Shown piece after piece: positions 2,873 to 9,606 of a DNA stretch of 25,045 bases. A program made the position numbers and the translations under genes. The notes below the pieces were generated by a model. The model did not search any database and was not told where the DNA came from. It worked only from the letters and a program-made list of their open reading frames with translations. The stretch is taken from IMG/VR virus record IMGVR_UViG_3300000265_000004, positions 20,624-45,668 of that record. One strand, written 5' to 3'. Source of the DNA: a virus. How positions within the stretch are numbered: the stretch's first letter is position 1; every line of letters starts with the position of its first letter.

Positions 2873-3757
2873 ATGAAAAGAGTAATATTCAGTTTATTCA
2901 TAGATATACCTAAAGAAGAATTAGATGTATTTGATAAACATATAAAAAAAGAAGGAGCCATACCTACAAATTACAATACTAAAAATGAGTTTCAAAAAAA
3001 CTATAAACAGTTAGTAGAAAATAAGGTCAACTATGCTAAATCAATAGGTATAGATTTTGTAATGGTAGAAAATGATACAAAATGTGGTTCTTTAAATACT
3101 AGTTATATTGATTATTATAAATGGATGAGAGAATTTTATCCAGAAATTACAAGTTATAATATAGTTAATTTTTTTAAAATACATTTATTATATGAGTTTA
3201 GTAAAGAGTATGATGAGGTATTATATCTAGACTTTGATGTAGTTACCAATACTACCGAAAACTTTTTTGAAGTGTGGGACTTATCAAAAGGTGTATGCGT
3301 TTTAAATAATAACGAGAGAGTATCTCCTATTCAAAAGATAACTGATAAAACACAAACTATAAGAAGTCCTAATGCAAAATTCTATAATGCTCAGGCTATG
3401 TTAATAGAAAAAGGATTAAGTCCTGAAAATGACGTTATCAATACAGGTATAGTAGGTATCAGTAAAAAACATTTAGATCAATTAGAATATTTTAAAGACT
3501 TTAAAGGAACAATACAATTAATGAAAAGTCTTATAGGAGAAACAGATATATTTCCTAAAAAAATTGCTGATTTTTTTGGTTATGATAACGAAACAATATT
3601 TGCTGTTAAGTTAAAAGAACATAAAGTACCAATACAATGGTTAGATCAAAAATGGCATTATTTCTTTGATACACAAATGTTTATACCTTCAACTGCAAAC
3701 TTTATACATGCCATTAACAAAAGGTTTGATATAGTTTGGAGAAACATTAATGCTTAG
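2873..3757 (+). CDS. GT-A-like glycosyltransferase (first of three in the cassette)
   Basis: A 294-residue protein resembling retaining GT-A glycosyltransferases of the GT8 or galactosyltransferase type. The N-terminal strand MKRVIFSLFI is followed by a helical region, then a sugar-nucleotide-site pattern NIVNFFKIHLLYEF (96-109) and the DxD metal motif in LYLDFDVV (Asp120, Asp122). A later block, DVINTGIVGIS, corresponds to the acceptor-side segment that often follows DxD in such enzymes. It would transfer a sugar from a nucleotide donor in the cytoplasm. No signal peptide or membrane segment is visible. The start has a good ribosome binding site (AAGGAG, 2863-2868). The next gene overlaps its end by 8 bases. 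Donor and acceptor are unknown. Confidence 0.75.
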   Translation: MKRVIFSLFIDIPKEELDVFDKHIKKEGAIPTNYNTKNEFQKNYKQLVENKVNYAKSIGIDFVMVENDTKCGSLNTSYIDYYKWMREFYPEITSYNIVNFFKIHLLYEFSKEYDEVLYLDFDVVTNTTENFFEVWDLSKGVCVLNNNERVSPIQKITDKTQTIRSPNAKFYNAQAMLIEKGLSPENDVINTGIVGISKKHLDQLEYFKDFKGTIQLMKSLIGETDIFPKKIADFFGYDNETIFAVKLKEHKVPIQWLDQKWHYFFDTQMFIPSTANFIHAINKRFDIVWRNINA

Positions 3758-4541
3758 AATATGTACAGTATATTATAAAGGTACTTACACACCAGACTAT
3801 GTTGGTAACTTTTATAAAGCTTTAAGAAAAAATAGTACCATACCTTTTAGATCAGTATGTATAAGTGACGATCCTAATGTTGAGGCAGACATTGTACTAC
3901 CATATAATCATCATAGTGATATTAAAAAACACTGGCATAAATTAAAATTTTTTAGTCCTTTATTTGGTGGCCAACAACCAGGTGATGATATAATAATAAT
4001 GGATATAGATCAAGTTGTCGTAGGTAATGTAGACGATCTTATAGGTTTTCCTGTTGGAGATAATGAGTTAGTATCTTATGGTGTTTGGTGGAATAATGAT
4101 ACTAAAAAAATTAAAGATCCTGAAAAGTTACGTGATCATAATATTTTACCATTAAACGGAGGTTTTTACAAGTTTAAATCAGGCCAATTAAAGCATGTAT
4201 GGGATGATTTTGCACTTAACCCACCTTATTGGCAACTACACTATTATAATATAGGTAAAGTACATTTTAAGTATTATGGAGAACAAAATTATGTTGACTG
4301 GAAAATATTTGAAAAAGAAAGTAAGTTAACTTTAACACCACCAGAGTGGTTAGGTAAATACACTGAAAATAAAGAAGATATGATACAATTGAACATGTTA
4401 TATTCAAAAACATTTAATACTGATTATATGTTACTAGACGAACCAGATGAAAAGTTAAAGATTGTTCACTACACAGGTCCGAGTCGTGCCATACACACTT
4501 TACCTGAAAGTCCTTTGTATAATATTTGGATAAATAAGTAG
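3750..4541 (+). CDS. GT-A-like glycosyltransferase (second in the cassette)
   Basis: A 263-residue protein with a GT-A layout. The N-terminal strand MLRICTVYY is followed by a HWHKLKFFSP segment (61-70), the DxD motif in IIIMDIDQVV (Asp85, Asp87), and a LNGGFYKFKSG block that resembles the acceptor-binding strand of GT8-like enzymes. Later come a YYGEQNYVDW block and a HYTGPSRAIH block near the C-terminus; histidines there can complete the metal site in GT8 relatives. The gene overlaps the previous one by 8 bases and is 1 base from the next, so it is co-translated in the cassette. It shares the order W-x-K, then GxxxxhhhDhD, then DLh with the smaller protein at 7787-8374 and is probably a distant paralog of it. 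Substrates are unknown. Confidence 0.75.
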   Translation: MLRICTVYYKGTYTPDYVGNFYKALRKNSTIPFRSVCISDDPNVEADIVLPYNHHSDIKKHWHKLKFFSPLFGGQQPGDDIIIMDIDQVVVGNVDDLIGFPVGDNELVSYGVWWNNDTKKIKDPEKLRDHNILPLNGGFYKFKSGQLKHVWDDFALNPPYWQLHYYNIGKVHFKYYGEQNYVDWKIFEKESKLTLTPPEWLGKYTENKEDMIQLNMLYSKTFNTDYMLLDEPDEKLKIVHYTGPSRAIHTLPESPLYNIWINK

Positions 4542-4542
4542 T

Positions 4543-5829
4543 ATGAACGAACAACAGAAAAAAGAGTTTGAACAAAAACTAAAAGATAAAAAACTGTGGT
4601 TTTGTCCACTTCCTTTCACACACGTATTTTCTAGTTTAAGTGGTAGATATGCACCTTGTTATGACGCACTAGCAAGAACTGGCCATAACATGGAAGATAC
4701 TACAATAAAAGAATGGTATACTTCCGAGTATCAAAATAAATTAAGAGCAGAAATGTTAAAAGAAGATTATGACCCTAAATATTTTAGACACCATTGTACA
4801 GGTTGTTGGAAACAAGAACAAAAATATGGTCGTTCAGACAGACAAAAATATACTGAACAAATACTAGCAGGAACATTTGACAGTAAAGTACCAGAATTAT
4901 TAAGAGCCGTTCAAAAGTTTATAGAAGAAGGAGCAATTACAGATTTTGATGAAAGAATACTAGATATTAAAATGAAAATGTTTGGTAATGCTTGTAATCT
5001 AGATTGTTATATGTGTACACCAAGAAGTGCTAACACTAGAACTCTTTCACTAAAACAATTAAAAAAAGTATATGATCCAGATTTAGACCCTAAAGACGGT
5101 GAAAGAATGAATACAATGAAGCACGATGATGAACAATATTTAGATGATGTTGCCTCTGTAGCAAAGTATACTAGATCAATCAAACTAATTGGTGGCGAAC
5201 CTTTAGTTATGAAAAATCACTACAAACTATTAGACAAATTAGTAGCAACAGGTTACTCAAAAGGTATAGATTTAATATACAAAACAAACTTATCTGTATT
5301 TGATATGGATGGATATAACTTTAGAGATTACTTTGATCATTTTAAAGAATTTGTTATGAAGATATCTATAGACAGTTATGGTAAACATAATGACTATTTA
5401 AGAAAAAAATCAGATTGGACTTCTCTTGTAGATAACATGAAAACTATGAGAGCTAGAAGAAATGCTAGAGTTAATGTTCACTCTGTAATATCTTTTTTAT
5501 CTGTATTAGAAAATTATAAACTAATTGCTATGTTAAAAGATATGGGTATACAACATACATTTTATATTATTGAACACCCAAGAATATTACAAGTAAAGAA
5601 TTTGCCTAAAGAAATTAAGGAAAATCTAAAACCACTATATAAAGATTATCCTAATATTTTAAAGGCTTTAGACAAAGAACAGGATGTAGAAGAATTTATT
5701 AAGACTATTGATTATTGTCAAGATTTAGATCAAAATGGTTTTAGTAAAAAAGAAGGACACGATTTATTTACAACACATCCTGAATTAGAGGATTACTATT
5801 TAAAAGCAAAAAGAGAAACTAATTATTAA
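4543..5829 (+). CDS. Radical SAM protein with N-terminal auxiliary-cluster (twitch-like) domain
   Basis: A 428-residue enzyme with two predicted [4Fe-4S] sites. The radical SAM core has CNLDCYMC (Cys151, Cys155, Cys158; CxxxCxxC) and the SAM-binding GGEP motif at 217-220. Before the core, cysteines at 21 (WFCPLPF), 39, 85 and 88 (HCTGCWKQE) form a pattern typical of twitch-domain radical SAM proteins, in which an extra cluster domain sits at the N-terminus. Such enzymes open S-adenosylmethionine reductively to start radical chemistry on a peptide, sugar or nucleotide. The gene lies 1 base after the glycosyltransferase stop and 9 bases before a QueC-like gene with AAGGAG ahead of it. QueE is also a radical SAM enzyme, but this protein is about twice QueE's usual size and does not look like it. 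Family is clear, substrate unknown. Confidence 0.88.
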   Translation: MNEQQKKEFEQKLKDKKLWFCPLPFTHVFSSLSGRYAPCYDALARTGHNMEDTTIKEWYTSEYQNKLRAEMLKEDYDPKYFRHHCTGCWKQEQKYGRSDRQKYTEQILAGTFDSKVPELLRAVQKFIEEGAITDFDERILDIKMKMFGNACNLDCYMCTPRSANTRTLSLKQLKKVYDPDLDPKDGERMNTMKHDDEQYLDDVASVAKYTRSIKLIGGEPLVMKNHYKLLDKLVATGYSKGIDLIYKTNLSVFDMDGYNFRDYFDHFKEFVMKISIDSYGKHNDYLRKKSDWTSLVDNMKTMRARRNARVNVHSVISFLSVLENYKLIAMLKDMGIQHTFYIIEHPRILQVKNLPKEIKENLKPLYKDYPNILKALDKEQDVEEFIKTIDYCQDLDQNGFSKKEGHDLFTTHPELEDYYLKAKRETNY

Positions 5830-5838
5830 GGAGTTATT

Positions 5839-6594
5839 ATGAAACTAACATACGGCAATCAGACTATTGACCTATTTGGAAAAGAACATTTTCCAGACGG
5901 ACCACCAGAAAAGGTCGTAGTATCACTATCAGGTGGTTGTGATTCATCATCACTTACATACTTAATAGGAACAAACTTTCCTAATATAGATATGTACCCT
6001 TTTCATACCAAAGATGAAGACTGTCCTATAGACACTGAACGTGCTATAGAAGTACATCAATGGTTACAAAACAAATTTCCTAAACTACATGATCTACGGA
6101 TATTTACAGTATCTACGTCTGATCCAGTTTGGCAAGAAAAGGCTAAAGAAGCAATGGCCTCACCAAAAGGTAGTCTTATAGTAAATGGTAAAAAAGTTTC
6201 TATGTGGGGAACGTTAAATGGTTGTTCAAAGGCTTTACAAAATAGAGACAAGAGATCAAAAATGTCTTTACAGTATGACGCACCTGTTGTTATGGCTATG
6301 ACTTCTAATCCACCTGTAGATGTACAGAAAGAAAGAGGATTTTACGAAGTAGCAGAAAGAAAAAGAGATCCTGGTGAAAGTAAACTAAAAGTTATGGACA
6401 CAATAGATAAAGGTGGTCTTACATATCAACCTTATTTAAGAAACGATAAAAAATTTGTAGCAGGTGTTTTTAAAGAACACAATCTAATGGATAGTTTATA
6501 TCCTCTAACTAAATCATGTGCTTGGTCCCAAACACTAGAAAATTGTGGTAAATGTTTTTGGTGTAACGAGAAAGAATGGGCTTTTGAAGATTAA
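5839..6594 (+). CDS. QueC-like PP-loop ATPase with four-Cys zinc site
   Basis: A 251-residue protein of the PP-loop superfamily. The ATP-binding loop is SLSGGCDSSS (SGGxDS at 31-36). The C-terminus carries Cys227, Cys236, Cys239 and Cys242 (SCAW, then CGKCFWC), closely matching the zinc knuckle at the end of 7-cyano-7-deazaguanine synthase QueC. The FVPGRN block of true QueC, needed for its usual substrate, is not visible; the corresponding middle region is different. It may therefore adenylate another carboxylate or carry out a QueC-like amide, nitrile or conjugation step. QueC-like proteins also occur in the Qat and type IV CBASS defence systems. The start has AAGGAG (5829-5834) and the next gene overlaps the stop (TAATG). 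PP-loop and zinc site are sure; a preQ0 role is not. Confidence 0.8.
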   Translation: MKLTYGNQTIDLFGKEHFPDGPPEKVVVSLSGGCDSSSLTYLIGTNFPNIDMYPFHTKDEDCPIDTERAIEVHQWLQNKFPKLHDLRIFTVSTSDPVWQEKAKEAMASPKGSLIVNGKKVSMWGTLNGCSKALQNRDKRSKMSLQYDAPVVMAMTSNPPVDVQKERGFYEVAERKRDPGESKLKVMDTIDKGGLTYQPYLRNDKKFVAGVFKEHNLMDSLYPLTKSCAWSQTLENCGKCFWCNEKEWAFED

Positions 6595-7154
6595 TGAAAA
6601 AAAGAACGGCTGTAGTATTAATACATTTTGAAATTAACAATAAACTAGCTATGAATAAAGAGTTAGATGAATTACGTTTTAGTAAATTAAAAGAATTGAT
6701 TTTTGAACATCCTATATACGATACTGGTATGTTTATAATATCTGAAAATTTAAAAACTCATCATAGTCCTAGAATGTTGCAATTAAAACATGAAGTTGAT
6801 AACGAAATGCCACAATCTTATTGGCACGAACTAGATGATAATGTCAAGTCAATAGAAGATATTAAAAAAGAGGCCGCTAAAGCAGGTTATGAAATTGGAA
6901 ATGTAATTATAGCAGGTCAAAACTTAGCAGGTTGTGTTTTGCGATCTTTAGACTATTCCGCTTTTAAATGGGCTAATCAAGGACATAATGCACAAATAGT
7001 ATTATCAATGTGTGGTGATTACGAAATATCTGGTATAGGACCTTTAAAATATATGAACTCTTTTTCTTCACTATATAGTCAAGTAAAGAAATCTGGTATG
7101 ATAGATAAAATTGATATCGTATCTGACATAGATAATATTAAATTTGATGAATAA
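6594..7154 (+). CDS. Unrecognised protein, first of a tandem paralog pair
   Basis: A 186-residue cytoplasmic protein that I cannot assign to a family. It is clearly paralogous to the next gene: both share ELDxLRFSxLK near residue 25, IISENL at 48-53, and a long C-terminal block with GQNLxGCV (108-115), SAxxWAxQGH, QIVLSMCGDYE (134-144), GPLKYM and a final DIDxI. Cys114 and Cys140 are conserved in both copies. The order of an N-terminal hydrophobic strand, a middle helix region and then IIAGQNLAGCV loosely recalls cysteine hydrolases of the isochorismatase fold, where the cysteine sits in a similar AGxxxxxCV turn. However, the acidic residue expected in the first strand is a histidine here (LIHFE) and no catalytic lysine is obvious, so that idea is weak. 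The start overlaps the QueC-like stop (TAATG). Confidence 0.7.
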   Translation: MKKRTAVVLIHFEINNKLAMNKELDELRFSKLKELIFEHPIYDTGMFIISENLKTHHSPRMLQLKHEVDNEMPQSYWHELDDNVKSIEDIKKEAAKAGYEIGNVIIAGQNLAGCVLRSLDYSAFKWANQGHNAQIVLSMCGDYEISGIGPLKYMNSFSSLYSQVKKSGMIDKIDIVSDIDNIKFDE

Positions 7155-7157
7155 ATT

Positions 7158-7784
7158 ATGTATCACACACAAAAATTTAAACAGGTAACACTTCTAAACT
7201 TAATAGACTTTGAAGGTAATGGACTTCTTTCTGATAATAAAGATTTAGATCAACTTCGTTTTAGTACTTTAAAAAGATTATTATTTGAACACCCTTGTGA
7301 AGACTTATGTATATTATCTGAAAATTTAGATGAAAAACCTCATGCAACAAGAATACTAGAATTATATGAAGAAGTTAAAGATAGATATGATTGGCAGTGG
7401 TTAGAATGGGATAACAAATATAAAAACGGAGACCCTAATTCTATTAAAGAAATAAAAAAGAAATACAAAGGTAAAGAAATTAAAAACGTAATTGTAGTAG
7501 GTCAAAACCTACCAGGTTGTGTTTTTAAAACATTAGATCACTCTGCTTTACGTTGGGCTCAACAAGGTCACTATACACAAATAGTATTGTCTATGTGTGG
7601 AGACTATGAAGTATCTGGTGTAGGACCTCTAAAATATATGAAATCTTTTGCAAATTTATATAAAGAAATTAAAAAAGCAGGACAATGGAGTAATATTGAT
7701 TTAGTATGTGACATTGATGATATAATGTATTACAATGATGGAATACCTTATGTTCTTTCTGATAGGGAGCCTCCTAGGAAATAA
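7158..7784 (+). CDS. Unrecognised protein, second of a tandem paralog pair
   Basis: A 208-residue protein sharing most of its C-terminal half with the preceding gene: GQNLPGCV (115-122, Cys121), QIVLSMCGDYE (141-151, Cys147), GVGPLKYM (154-161) and CDIDDI near the end. Unlike its neighbour it keeps an aspartate in the first strand (NLIDFEG, Asp17) and has about 20 extra residues at the C-terminus. The first strand plus the VVGQNLPGCV turn would fit a divergent isochorismatase-type cysteine hydrolase slightly better than the first copy does, but this is only an inference from pattern. Two copies that both keep the core block suggest either a heteromer or enzymes with related substrates. The gap to the previous stop is 3 bases, and the next gene starts 2 bases after this stop. 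Confidence 0.7.
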   Translation: MYHTQKFKQVTLLNLIDFEGNGLLSDNKDLDQLRFSTLKRLLFEHPCEDLCILSENLDEKPHATRILELYEEVKDRYDWQWLEWDNKYKNGDPNSIKEIKKKYKGKEIKNVIVVGQNLPGCVFKTLDHSALRWAQQGHYTQIVLSMCGDYEVSGVGPLKYMKSFANLYKEIKKAGQWSNIDLVCDIDDIMYYNDGIPYVLSDREPPRK

Positions 7785-7786
7785 TA

Positions 7787-8374
7787 ATGAGAAGAATAAT
7801 AGCTTGTAGATTTGGTAATAAGTTTAATCAATGGCATGTTGATAACTTAAAATATATGATAGATTTCCACTCTGGAATATCTTATGATAGTTTTGAAGTT
7901 ATTGAAAATGACATTTATGGTAATTGGTATAATAAGTTTCAAATGTACGATAAGTTTAGAGACGGAGAAAACTTATACTTTGATTTAGATGTTATTATAT
8001 GGAAAGAGTTACCAGATTTATTCAGAAAAGATTTTACTTTATTAAATGACCTATGGTGGAGAGAAGAAGCTCATACACCACTTAACTCAACTATCGTTTC
8101 ATGGACAGGCGATGTATCTCATATATGGGATAAATTTAAGTCTAACGAAAAAATGTACCTGGAAAAATACAATAAAGGTAGTGATGAGTTTTATTATAGA
8201 GAAATAGATTACAAAAACTATGATAAAGTTTGTCCTTCTATTAAAAACTATATGTATGAAATACCACCAAAAGAATTTAGTATTTGCACTCTAGGTCAAA
8301 TGAACCACCTATTAGAACCAGGTTGGCAAGGTTGGTGGTCAGATTTTATTCTGCCTCACTATAAAGATCAATAG
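7787..8374 (+). CDS. Small GT-A-like glycosyltransferase (third in the cassette)
   Basis: A 195-residue protein with a short GT-A-like core. MRRIIACRFG forms the first strand, WYNKFQMYDKF (47-57) precedes the DxD motif in LYFDLDVII (Asp66, Asp68), and LNSTIVSW takes the place of the LNGGFYKF block of the 263-residue glycosyltransferase upstream. It is shorter than most members, and the C-terminal part that often completes the active site is reduced, so it may work as a complex or have lost activity. It is the last gene of the + strand cassette. Its final 29 bases overlap the last codons of the oppositely transcribed gene 8346-8885. No terminator hairpin is visible between them. Fold assignment is probable, substrate unknown. 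Confidence 0.6.
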   Translation: MRRIIACRFGNKFNQWHVDNLKYMIDFHSGISYDSFEVIENDIYGNWYNKFQMYDKFRDGENLYFDLDVIIWKELPDLFRKDFTLLNDLWWREEAHTPLNSTIVSWTGDVSHIWDKFKSNEKMYLEKYNKGSDEFYYREIDYKNYDKVCPSIKNYMYEIPPKEFSICTLGQMNHLLEPGWQGWWSDFILPHYKDQ

Positions 8375-8885
8375 CACCTTTAAGTAATTCTATTCTAGTC
8401 TTACTTTTTCTTAATGCTTTTTTACCGTCAAGATTTTTAGAATCTTTTATCTTGTCTACTTCAAATAAAGCAATTTTTAAAGCAAACATTTCATCTTCAT
8501 CTGCTTCTTTATCACTAAAAATATAATCAAGTATTCTACTTGGAGAAGTATCGTCTGTTTGTACAAGACCGTCTCTTTTAGCAATTTGTATTGCAAATTC
8601 TTCAAATTCTTTTCTTTCTTTATTTACTTTAACATACGTAGCTTCATGTATTTCGTCTAACGTAGTAAATTTCATTAATGCTTGACAATTAGGATGTTCT
8701 AAATCATATTCAACGTGATGTGAAGAAAGACTATCTCCATTTTCGTTAGTTAAAACTTCTATCCATGTTCTTTCGTTGTTTGTAAAATGAGCTCCTGCAA
8801 AATGATTTTTTAGTAATTCTTCACCAAATCCTATTTCTTTATGTTCTACTTTTTCTGGTATAATTAAATTTTTATCAATTAACAT
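8346..8885 (-). CDS. Unrecognised phage protein
   Basis: A 179-residue, mostly charged and helical protein with no signal peptide or membrane segment. I do not recognise a family. Visible features are an N-terminal LIDKNLIIPEKVEHKEIGFG stretch, an aromatic NNERTWIEVL segment, a HxHPNCQALM-like region with His and Cys, and a long helical C-terminal half rich in Lys, Glu and Asp (from about residue 85). It is the last gene of the - strand structural block, and its start overlaps the end of the epimerase gene by 11 bases, suggesting coupled translation. Its own end overlaps the convergent glycosyltransferase gene by 29 bases. The position after fibre-like genes and an epimerase fits an accessory late protein, but the sequence does not say more. 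Confidence 0.7.
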   Translation of the reverse strand: MLIDKNLIIPEKVEHKEIGFGEELLKNHFAGAHFTNNERTWIEVLTNENGDSLSSHHVEYDLEHPNCQALMKFTTLDEIHEATYVKVNKERKEFEEFAIQIAKRDGLVQTDDTSPSRILDYIFSDKEADEDEMFALKIALFEVDKIKDSKNLDGKKALRKSKTRIELLKGAIDLYSEAE

Positions 8886-9606
8886 TTTTGTTTTCCTTTA
8901 TATAATCGTAAAGGTCAATTGTAGTTGACCAATTTAGTTTGTTTAATACTTTGTTATCTGCTTTATTATCTTCTCTCTCAAACTCGTTCCCAATTCTTTT
9001 TTCAGCGTCAATTCCGAAGTAAGTTAATAACTCTATTAAGTTATAAGACTCTCCTCTACCAACGTCACATATTCCTTTAAAATCTGTTTTCATTAATGTA
9101 TCAATGGCGATCATTAAATCATTTATATGAATAAAGTCTCTTGTATGATTTGTATGTATAAATGGAACATCGTCTCTTAATATTCTTGGTATTAACATAT
9201 GTTCTCTTGCACCAGGTCCATATACAGTTGTAAATCTCATACCTACACTATTCTTTGGTGCTATACTCTCTAAAGACTTCTTACTCATTGCATATGGATT
9301 TCTCCACGGATCTACAGCCGTTGATGAACTCGCATATAGTATTCTTGTGTTTGGAAAATAATCAAATAGTCTTTGACCTGCAATTACATTTTCTTTCCAG
9401 TATTCTGTAGGTCTATCTAAACTATCTCTAACACCTGATAGACCAGCCAAGTGTATGACTAAATCTACATCGTATTTAAGGTCACAATTTATTAAATCGT
9501 TACCTGATAATTTATCTATTGGTATTACTTTGTGATTGTTGTCTTGTAGAAATTGATGAAGGTGTTTACCTATAAATCCTTCACTGCCTGTTAATAATAT
9601 ATTCAT
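8875..9606 (-). CDS. NAD-dependent sugar-nucleotide epimerase/dehydratase (extended SDR)
   Basis: A 243-residue extended short-chain dehydrogenase. The dinucleotide-binding loop is GSEGFIG (7-13), followed by the acidic residue after the second strand (IPIDKL), HLAGLSG (52-58), the catalytic serine region YASSSTAV (91-98) and the YxxxK pair in YAMSK (Tyr105, Lys109). RFTTVYGPG and DFIHINDL are the usual later epimerase blocks. It would interconvert nucleotide sugars such as UDP- or GDP-hexoses in the cytoplasm. It is shorter than typical GalE or RmlB enzymes (about 310-340 residues), mainly through a reduced substrate domain. It follows the virion genes on the - strand and has a late-promoter-like word 5 bases before its ATG, so it is probably expressed late. 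It may feed the + strand glycosyltransferases. Confidence 0.88.
   Translation of the reverse strand: MNILLTGSEGFIGKHLHQFLQDNNHKVIPIDKLSGNDLINCDLKYDVDLVIHLAGLSGVRDSLDRPTEYWKENVIAGQRLFDYFPNTRILYASSSTAVDPWRNPYAMSKKSLESIAPKNSVGMRFTTVYGPGAREHMLIPRILRDDVPFIHTNHTRDFIHINDLMIAIDTLMKTDFKGICDVGRGESYNLIELLTYFGIDAEKRIGNEFEREDNKADNKVLNKLNWSTTIDLYDYIKENKNVN

Follow-up and report, generated by a model that had tools for sequence, protein, structure and literature searches.

The QueC-like gene and its surroundings

The stretch of DNA analysed here (the window, 25,045 nucleotides) corresponds to bases 20624-45668 of a 45,668-base IMG/VR record. At positions 5839-6594 of its + strand lies an ORF with an ATG start, which encodes a QueC-like PP-loop protein of 251 aa and is preceded by an AAGGAG ribosome-binding site (5828-5833, + strand, 5 nt before the ATG). 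The assignment is based on the ORF itself, on the AlphaFold2 (AF2) fold and on relatives in viral contigs. The protein carries an SGGCDS ATP-pyrophosphatase loop at residues 31-36 (5929-5946) and a zinc knuckle, C227-x8-C236-GK-C239-FW-C242 (6517-6564), whose spacing is that published for QueC (PMC13329287). The likeness of this loop and of the CGKCFWC knuckle to QueC, pointed out in a first-pass annotation of the sequence, is thus borne out.

Immediately upstream, on the same strand, is a twitch-domain radical SAM enzyme (4543-5829), which is matched by NF033640 at 296.4 bits (cut-off 170). It has a CNLDCYMC (CxxxCxxC) motif at 4993-5016 and Cys21/39/85/88 on the twitch side. It is not QueE, as it scores 14.9 bits against the QueE model (cut-off 300). 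Downstream are two isochorismatase-like cysteine hydrolases (6594-7154 and 7158-7784, + strand), 54% identical to each other, neither of which has a Pfam match. For the second copy, an AF2 model (pLDDT 86.4) gave a top Z of 12.3, and the matches listed (the best 50 PDB entries, Z 10.6-12.3) are cysteine hydrolases, nicotinamidases, isochorismatases or relatives. In their alignment, Cys121 is invariant, the Asp is His in some members and the catalytic Lys is not evident. These hydrolases form an unnamed family with 59 ORFs near QueC-like genes.

The other genes of the window operon are also on the + strand. They are the C-terminal part of a radical SAM enzyme (1-291; about 279 aa when whole, as read at locus L193), assigned by its radical SAM relatives and its place in the operon; a MIP18/PaaD-like Fe-S assembly protein (302-700; PF01883, E 3e-13); a NodU/TobZ-type carbamoyltransferase (716-2251; PF16861, E 1.4e-70); a methyltransferase-like protein (2248-2871; a weak PF13649 match, and 56% identity to Mosig_00090, annotated as a putative methyltransferase); a GT8 glycosyltransferase (2873-3757); and two PHROG 1962-type glycosyltransferases (GTs), at 3750-4541 and 7787-8374. 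The latter, 64% identical to Mosig_00094, is the downstream border of the cassette. The MIP18/PaaD-like gene fits an operon in which many radical SAM enzymes would have to be loaded.

In the whole record, the collinear + strand run spans about 13.4 kb to 29.0 kb. It starts with a GT-like gene, two pairs of a small radical SAM enzyme with a Cys-rich 120-aa protein, a DegT aminotransferase and an SGNH-like protein. It continues with two nitroreductase-like proteins, the ~279-aa radical SAM enzyme and the MIP18, carbamoyltransferase, methyltransferase, GT8 and GT genes, and ends with the twitch radical SAM enzyme, the QueC-like protein, the two cysteine hydrolases and the last GT. Past the run come an epimerase and then, on the other strand, a 2023-aa protein, matched to VrlC by position. 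The island lies beside tail genes.

The gp6-like baseplate protein shares 70% identity with that of Pelagibacter phage Mosig EXVC030M and 54% with that of HTVC008M; by this likeness, the source virus is very probably a pelagimyophage relative, a T4-like ocean phage akin to known SAR11 phages. The cultured pelagiphage Mosig has the same operon frame in the same place (carbamoyltransferase, methyltransferase, GT8, GT, epimerase and VrlC), with identities to the window of 73% (carbamoyltransferase), 56%, 49%, 51% and 64%. Between its two GT genes, Mosig carries a nitroreductase (L158, 17856-18737), whereas the window has the cassette of twitch radical SAM, QueC-like and two cysteine hydrolase genes (4543-7784). 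Since the slot is identical, this natural swap, seen in a phage that has a laboratory host, indicates that the cassette is exchangeable. The host recognition cluster of pelagimyophages is known to hold GT8 enzymes and radical SAM cassettes (PMC7029224), and among T4-like marine genomes, one has been described with 12 radical SAM genes and paaD (PMC5332604). By term search, the QueC-like family is not mentioned in either paper.

A QueC fold with its own conserved residues

The best Pfam family for the window protein is QueC (PF06508), with 21.4 bits against a cut-off of 22 and the best stretch at residues 25-59; the model for true QueC, TIGR00364, gives 14.9 bits, far below its cut-off of 150.3. 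All 27 aligned family members match PF06508 at E <= 0.1, and the same core is retained in relatives at about 33-100% identity. In a single hhalign comparison, the family aligned with canonical QueC at E 2.9e-7 and 14% identity, the knuckle region included. A search of the PDB with the sequence profile returned chiefly PP-loop matches of many kinds and did not resolve the family level.

Further, an AF2 model was built from a 10-row alignment (pLDDT 86.9, pTM 0.87). Its top match by structural alignment to the PDB is B. subtilis QueC (3bl5; Z 14.4 over 181 residues, 3.5 A), followed by Cap9-CdnD (Z 13.9), LarE (13.6), TilS and QatC (12.5), where Z differences below 1 were treated as ties. By Foldseek E-value, TtuA comes first. 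The matches of 27/27 members to Pfam QueC, the core kept in relatives and the agreement of the model with QueC structures together argue that the resemblance to QueC is not due to chance.

Motifs were counted in 50 family representatives clustered at 75% and in 7 canonical QueC controls. SGGxDS is found in 49/50 representatives (the individual PP-loop letters in 49-50 of 50), and the four zinc cysteines in all 50. The window protein has the exact C(x)8CxxCxxC pattern; most other members have a longer first spacer. T224xSC227 and CxxC[FW]WCxExxWA are also kept (the latter 48/50 by pattern), and no Cys outside the knuckle is conserved among the representatives. With the PP-loop and the zinc site so well preserved, the protein is predicted to be an active ATP-using enzyme.

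The canonical QueC signature comprises SGGxDS, YxQxHxxE, VPxRN, YPDC and C(x)8CxxCxxC, and mutants of E. coli QueC have shown that Y35, R99, Y131 and Y189 are essential (PMC13329287). The first-pass annotation had reported the FVPGRN block as missing, and the loss proved to be wider. Neither the window protein nor any of the 50 representatives has VPxRN/FVPGRN (5/7 controls do) or YxQxHxxE (3/7 controls). YPDC (4/7 controls) and [T/S]CY, with its Tyr right after the first zinc Cys (Y189 in E. coli; 6/7 controls), were each found in 0/50. These patterns are strict but not blind, as each is found in 3 to 6 of the 7 controls.

Instead, the family has residues of its own. A P54x4D59x5D65 pattern is present in 44/50 representatives; its D59-x5-D65 part (6013-6033; D59 46/50, D65 44/50) would, from the alignment, occupy the place of YxQxHxxE. 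K131 (6229-6231; 49/50) appears, by predicted secondary structure, to open the helix that holds VPxRN in canonical QueC. The NPP motif of residues 157-159 (6307-6315) lies close to where QueC has its YPDC substrate loop; it is retained as N157-P158-[P/S] in 47-50 of the 50 representatives (P158 50/50, N157 47/50) and found in none of the 7 canonical controls. E173-x2-R176 (6355-6366; 47/50 each) probably lies on the substrate side of the pocket, in a part of the model where residues 175-180 fall in a low-confidence loop. K204 is present in 50/50. Thus, the structure prediction and the alignment to QueC, QatC and Cap9 that had been proposed as a check yield a QueC fold with its own motif set.

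A family apart from canonical QueC

With the window protein as query, 19 viral loci were found in IMG/VR; an alignment query gave 103 matching stretches and a broader one at least 474. A tblastn search with three diverse members found no cultured homologue in 50,697 phage records. All the viral evidence is metagenomic, and the 75% clusters are not fully independent. The family also has 19 bacterial loci, several of them on long Bdellovibrionia contigs; it is present in only 3/144 genomes of that phylum, and its bacterial occurrence is therefore sporadic. The Bdellovibrionia genomes searched carry canonical QueC as well (E about 1e-46 to 1e-71), so the two proteins are not interchangeable.

A maximum-likelihood tree sets all 50 representatives apart from canonical QueC, Cap9 and QatC with a branch support of 100/100; QatC and Cap9 form long branches of unsure placement, and the tree is read here solely for where the 50 family rows part from the rest. 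The QueC-like proteins are a distinct family with a QueC fold. Placement inside the canonical QueC clade, with all the substrate residues present, had been named as the outcome that would speak against a non-canonical enzyme; the tree and the missing motifs give the opposite picture.

Several islands have features of their own. Two or three divergent QueC-like paralogues per island are seen in L018, L022 and L044, which suggests several substrates in one pathway. In L018, a MOSC-domain gene (8766-9230) directly follows the QueC-like gene, and L009 and L017 have an ORF of the same size there. In the Bdellovibrionia chromosomal islands L091, L095 and L098, the QueC-like gene is followed by two membrane proteins, with many twitch and B12-binding radical SAM genes close by. 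The Bdellovibrionia partners F40 and F41 were considered as SdpA/SdpB-like from their length and membrane segments, a candidate rejected for want of Pfam or NCBIfam support. As read from the sequence, the QueC-like gene of bacterial locus L089 (5176-8873) has as its neighbours a sulfotransferase-like gene and, on the opposite strand, CysC-, CysD- and CysN-like genes; sulfotransferase-like genes also lie downstream of the phage gene in L057-L070.

Fusion and adjacency with the radical SAM partner

The first-pass annotation had drawn attention to a phage QueC-like copy beside a radical SAM enzyme. This adjacency is seen directly (4543-6594), and fusions in other viruses give it meaning. In four 75% clusters (L043/L045/L050; L047-L049; L114; L102/L103/L115), the C-terminus of the QueC-like domain continues into a twitch radical SAM enzyme within one chain. 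These chains are 725-769 aa long, except for that of L050 (417 aa, cut by the contig end); the 725-aa fusion of L115 also ends at a locus edge. The fusion of L047 (8001-10229) has 743 aa. In a fifth cluster (L044/L046/L068, 458 aa), the fusion is to a small radical SAM enzyme. The QueC-like domain is complete in the fusions, and the radical SAM part of the L114 fusion matches NF033640 at 275.9 bits (cut-off 170). The four twitch fusions share one tree clade with unfused members, and may therefore go back to a single fusion with subsequent splits; the fifth cluster has a different place in the tree. In L192 (14278-16288) and L045 (3861-4974), a protein of 110-130 aa with a CCW/C-motif stands beside a radical SAM domain of 210-260 aa, as if a twitch enzyme had been cut in two.

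Adjacency was tested against shuffled gene order at 61 loci, which come from different clusters and have a run of genes on the same strand. The twitch radical SAM enzyme (family F0) is next door to the QueC-like gene in 22 cases, with 13.2 expected (P 0.003), and the isochorismatase-like cysteine hydrolase (F7) in 10, with 3.3 expected (P 0.0002); both stay below 0.05 after Bonferroni correction for 12 families. The carbamoyltransferase and the methyltransferase, common as they are in the islands, have no next-door enrichment at these 61 loci. Within 7 kb of the QueC-like gene, the twitch radical SAM enzyme occurs in 57 of 70 clusters, the carbamoyltransferase in 36 and DegT in 27.

Comparison with known PP-loop enzymes

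The QueC-like protein shares with canonical QueC the fold, the SGGxDS loop, the C(x)8CxxCxxC pattern and a conserved Lys before the knuckle. It differs in the four lost motifs, in an N-terminal hairpin extension, in a structural-alignment identity of only 17%, and in having a twitch radical SAM partner, fused or adjoining, with no pathway genes found. The window had earlier been described as free of folE, queD and queE; the whole 45.7-kb record likewise yielded no folE or queD, and the radical SAM gene is of the NF033640 type. QueD (PF01242), FolE (PF01227) and TGT (PF01702) were found in none of 16 virus records, which may be fragments (the longest 171 kb), while controls were positive. As fragments can hide genes, this absence weakens a role in DNA modification, against which the loss of motifs is the stronger argument.

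Cap9 of type IV CBASS (9nto) is likewise a short QueC-core protein with the same fold. Unlike Cap9, the family has neither the RN pair nor YxDC, whose Tyr and Asp hold CDG in Cap9, and its partner is a radical SAM enzyme; no CD-NTase partner was seen, Pfam giving no CD-NTase match among ten window genes. Of the Cap9 signature (Y/FxQ(x)5E, RN, YxDC and CE(x)6CxxCxxC), YxDC and CE(x)6CxxCxxC occur in 0/50 representatives, and a relaxed YxQ in 3/50 and not in the window protein. QatC of qatABCD (9y02) resembles the family in its QueC core and in that the CDG-recognition residues are replaced; yet the 251-aa protein lacks the large N- and C-terminal extensions and C(x)19CGxCxxRR (0/50). No QatA or QatD was found among the scanned neighbours of QueC-like genes, and the PADLOC QatC model matched 1/27 members (E 0.0095). 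With the WbpG-type N-sugar amidotransferases (PF06508 cluster 5, PMC13329287), the family has in common the PP-loop, a likely surface-polysaccharide setting and possibly sugar amide chemistry, although SGGxDSxY and CxxC(x)6CxC are each at 0/50.

Possible roles of the pair

Of the roles proposed at first, 7-deazaguanine modification of DNA or tRNA, by a divergent preQ0 enzyme whose partners would be encoded at other sites of the phage or by the host, is now very improbable. The QueC fold and a radical SAM neighbour that recalls QueE favour it, and aquatic viruses commonly carry queC, queD, queE and folE (PMC9301287); yet the CDG-reading motifs are gone in 50/50 representatives together with the residues essential in E. 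coli, the pathway genes are missing from the 16 records, the radical SAM enzyme is not QueE and, in Bdellovibrionia genomes, the protein coexists with canonical QueC. A defence or counter-defence role of the kind known from Qat or type IV CBASS is hardly to be expected either. The shared fold and the carriage by phages would suit it, but the QatC model matches a single member, the QatC and Cap9 zinc motifs are absent, the family branches separately, Met-Gly N-termini are not enriched near QueC-like genes (6/308 vs 9/405) and the recurrent partner is a radical SAM enzyme, not a CD-NTase, KAP NTPase or TatD. A sulfur-transferring PP-loop enzyme of the TtuA/LarE kind, rather than an amide-forming ligase, also seems improbable, if somewhat less so: TtuA leads by Foldseek, LarE is near the top structurally and L018 has its MOSC-domain gene. 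Against this, QueC is first by Z-score (though within the tie), the QueC-type C-terminal knuckle is kept with no other conserved Cys, and non-sacrificial LarE has a three-Cys [4Fe-4S] site and no QueC zinc motif (PMC13329287).

The main rival is that the pair modifies a peptide or protein, for example of the tail or the host, by RiPP-like maturation or Cap9-like conjugation; it is unlikely, but deserves more weight than the others. Protein N-termini are the target of Cap9 and have been proposed as that of QatC (PMC13279940); Cap9 also ties for the top structural match, and the island adjoins tail genes. Peptides are frequent substrates of twitch/SPASM enzymes. The twitch radical SAM relatives, the bacterial ones included, weakly resemble many peptide maturases, which makes a peptide or protein substrate conceivable. 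On the other hand, the tightly packed operon leaves no room for a precursor ORF, the neighbours are mostly sugar enzymes, and the lack of Met-Gly enrichment weighs here as well.

The reading preferred here, with a probability of about 0.5, is that a QueC-fold ATP-pyrophosphatase ligase pairs with the twitch radical SAM enzyme and makes an amide or conjugate in the tailoring of surface glycans. What remains of the original interpretation is the non-canonical QueC fold, the radical SAM link and an amide- or conjugate-forming enzyme as the best reading; 7-deazaguanine, Qat and CBASS are given up. Adenylation followed by attack of a nitrogen nucleophile is the established chemistry of NAD synthetase. 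The same is known for this PP-loop fold in QueC and Cap9, where a carboxylate (or amide) is adenylated and passed to a nitrogen nucleophile (PMC13279940). With the PP-loop and zinc site intact, the predicted activity of the QueC-like protein is taken from this family: its PP-loop would adenylate a carboxylate, and an amine or ammonia would attack to give an amide; a nitrile is the less likely product. The cysteine hydrolases may supply the ammonia, a possibility that their fold and adjacency fit, although the triad Lys is not evident. The acceptor pocket would be lined by its own residue set (D59/D65, K131, NPP and E173/R176). Since the 7-deazaguanine-reading Tyr and Asp, as well as the Tyr and Arg residues needed for preQ0, are lost and a separate motif set is present, the substrate is probably not CDG, and the bond formed probably differs from preQ0 chemistry.

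The glycan substrate and the surface role have less support than the reaction class. The neighbours (carbamoyltransferase, DegT, methyltransferase, GTs and epimerase) resemble a set for amino-sugar or aminocyclitol tailoring, which makes a cell-surface sugar the most likely target. In aminocyclitol tailoring, twitch radical SAM enzymes such as BtrN are oxidases. Here, the radical SAM partner would either make or finish the substrate, and the pair would act as an exchangeable cassette in an operon of carbamoyltransferase, methyltransferase, GT, DegT, nitroreductase and SGNH-like genes beside the tail genes. The likeliest target would be a sugar, amino sugar or cyclitol on the infected cell or the virion coat, and the host surface may be altered against competing phages. 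More tentatively, the pair may be a two-step enzyme: the twitch radical SAM part would make or open a carboxylate, which the QueC-fold module, fused to it or docked, would then adenylate and ligate. Host surfaces altered by the phage, or virions, would thereby gain a chemical group that is new to description.

Significance for the family and for marine phages

A 2026 survey of PF06508 distinguished canonical QueC, QatC, Cap9, LarE, GMPS, a purine-salvage type and WbpG, and left three archaeal clusters open (PMC13329287). The viral, radical-SAM-linked family is not among the clusters described there; the window protein itself falls just under the Pfam cut-off. The single-chain fusions offer a ready, testable protein, and the two activities likely belong together. 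If the two-step enzyme is real, the pair would be one among several tailoring cassettes that marine T4-like phages can swap for one another. Should a surface glycan prove to be the target, the pair would offer a chemical way into the rebuilding of host surfaces by SAR11 phages, a question raised earlier for these islands of the pelagimyophages (PMC7029224).
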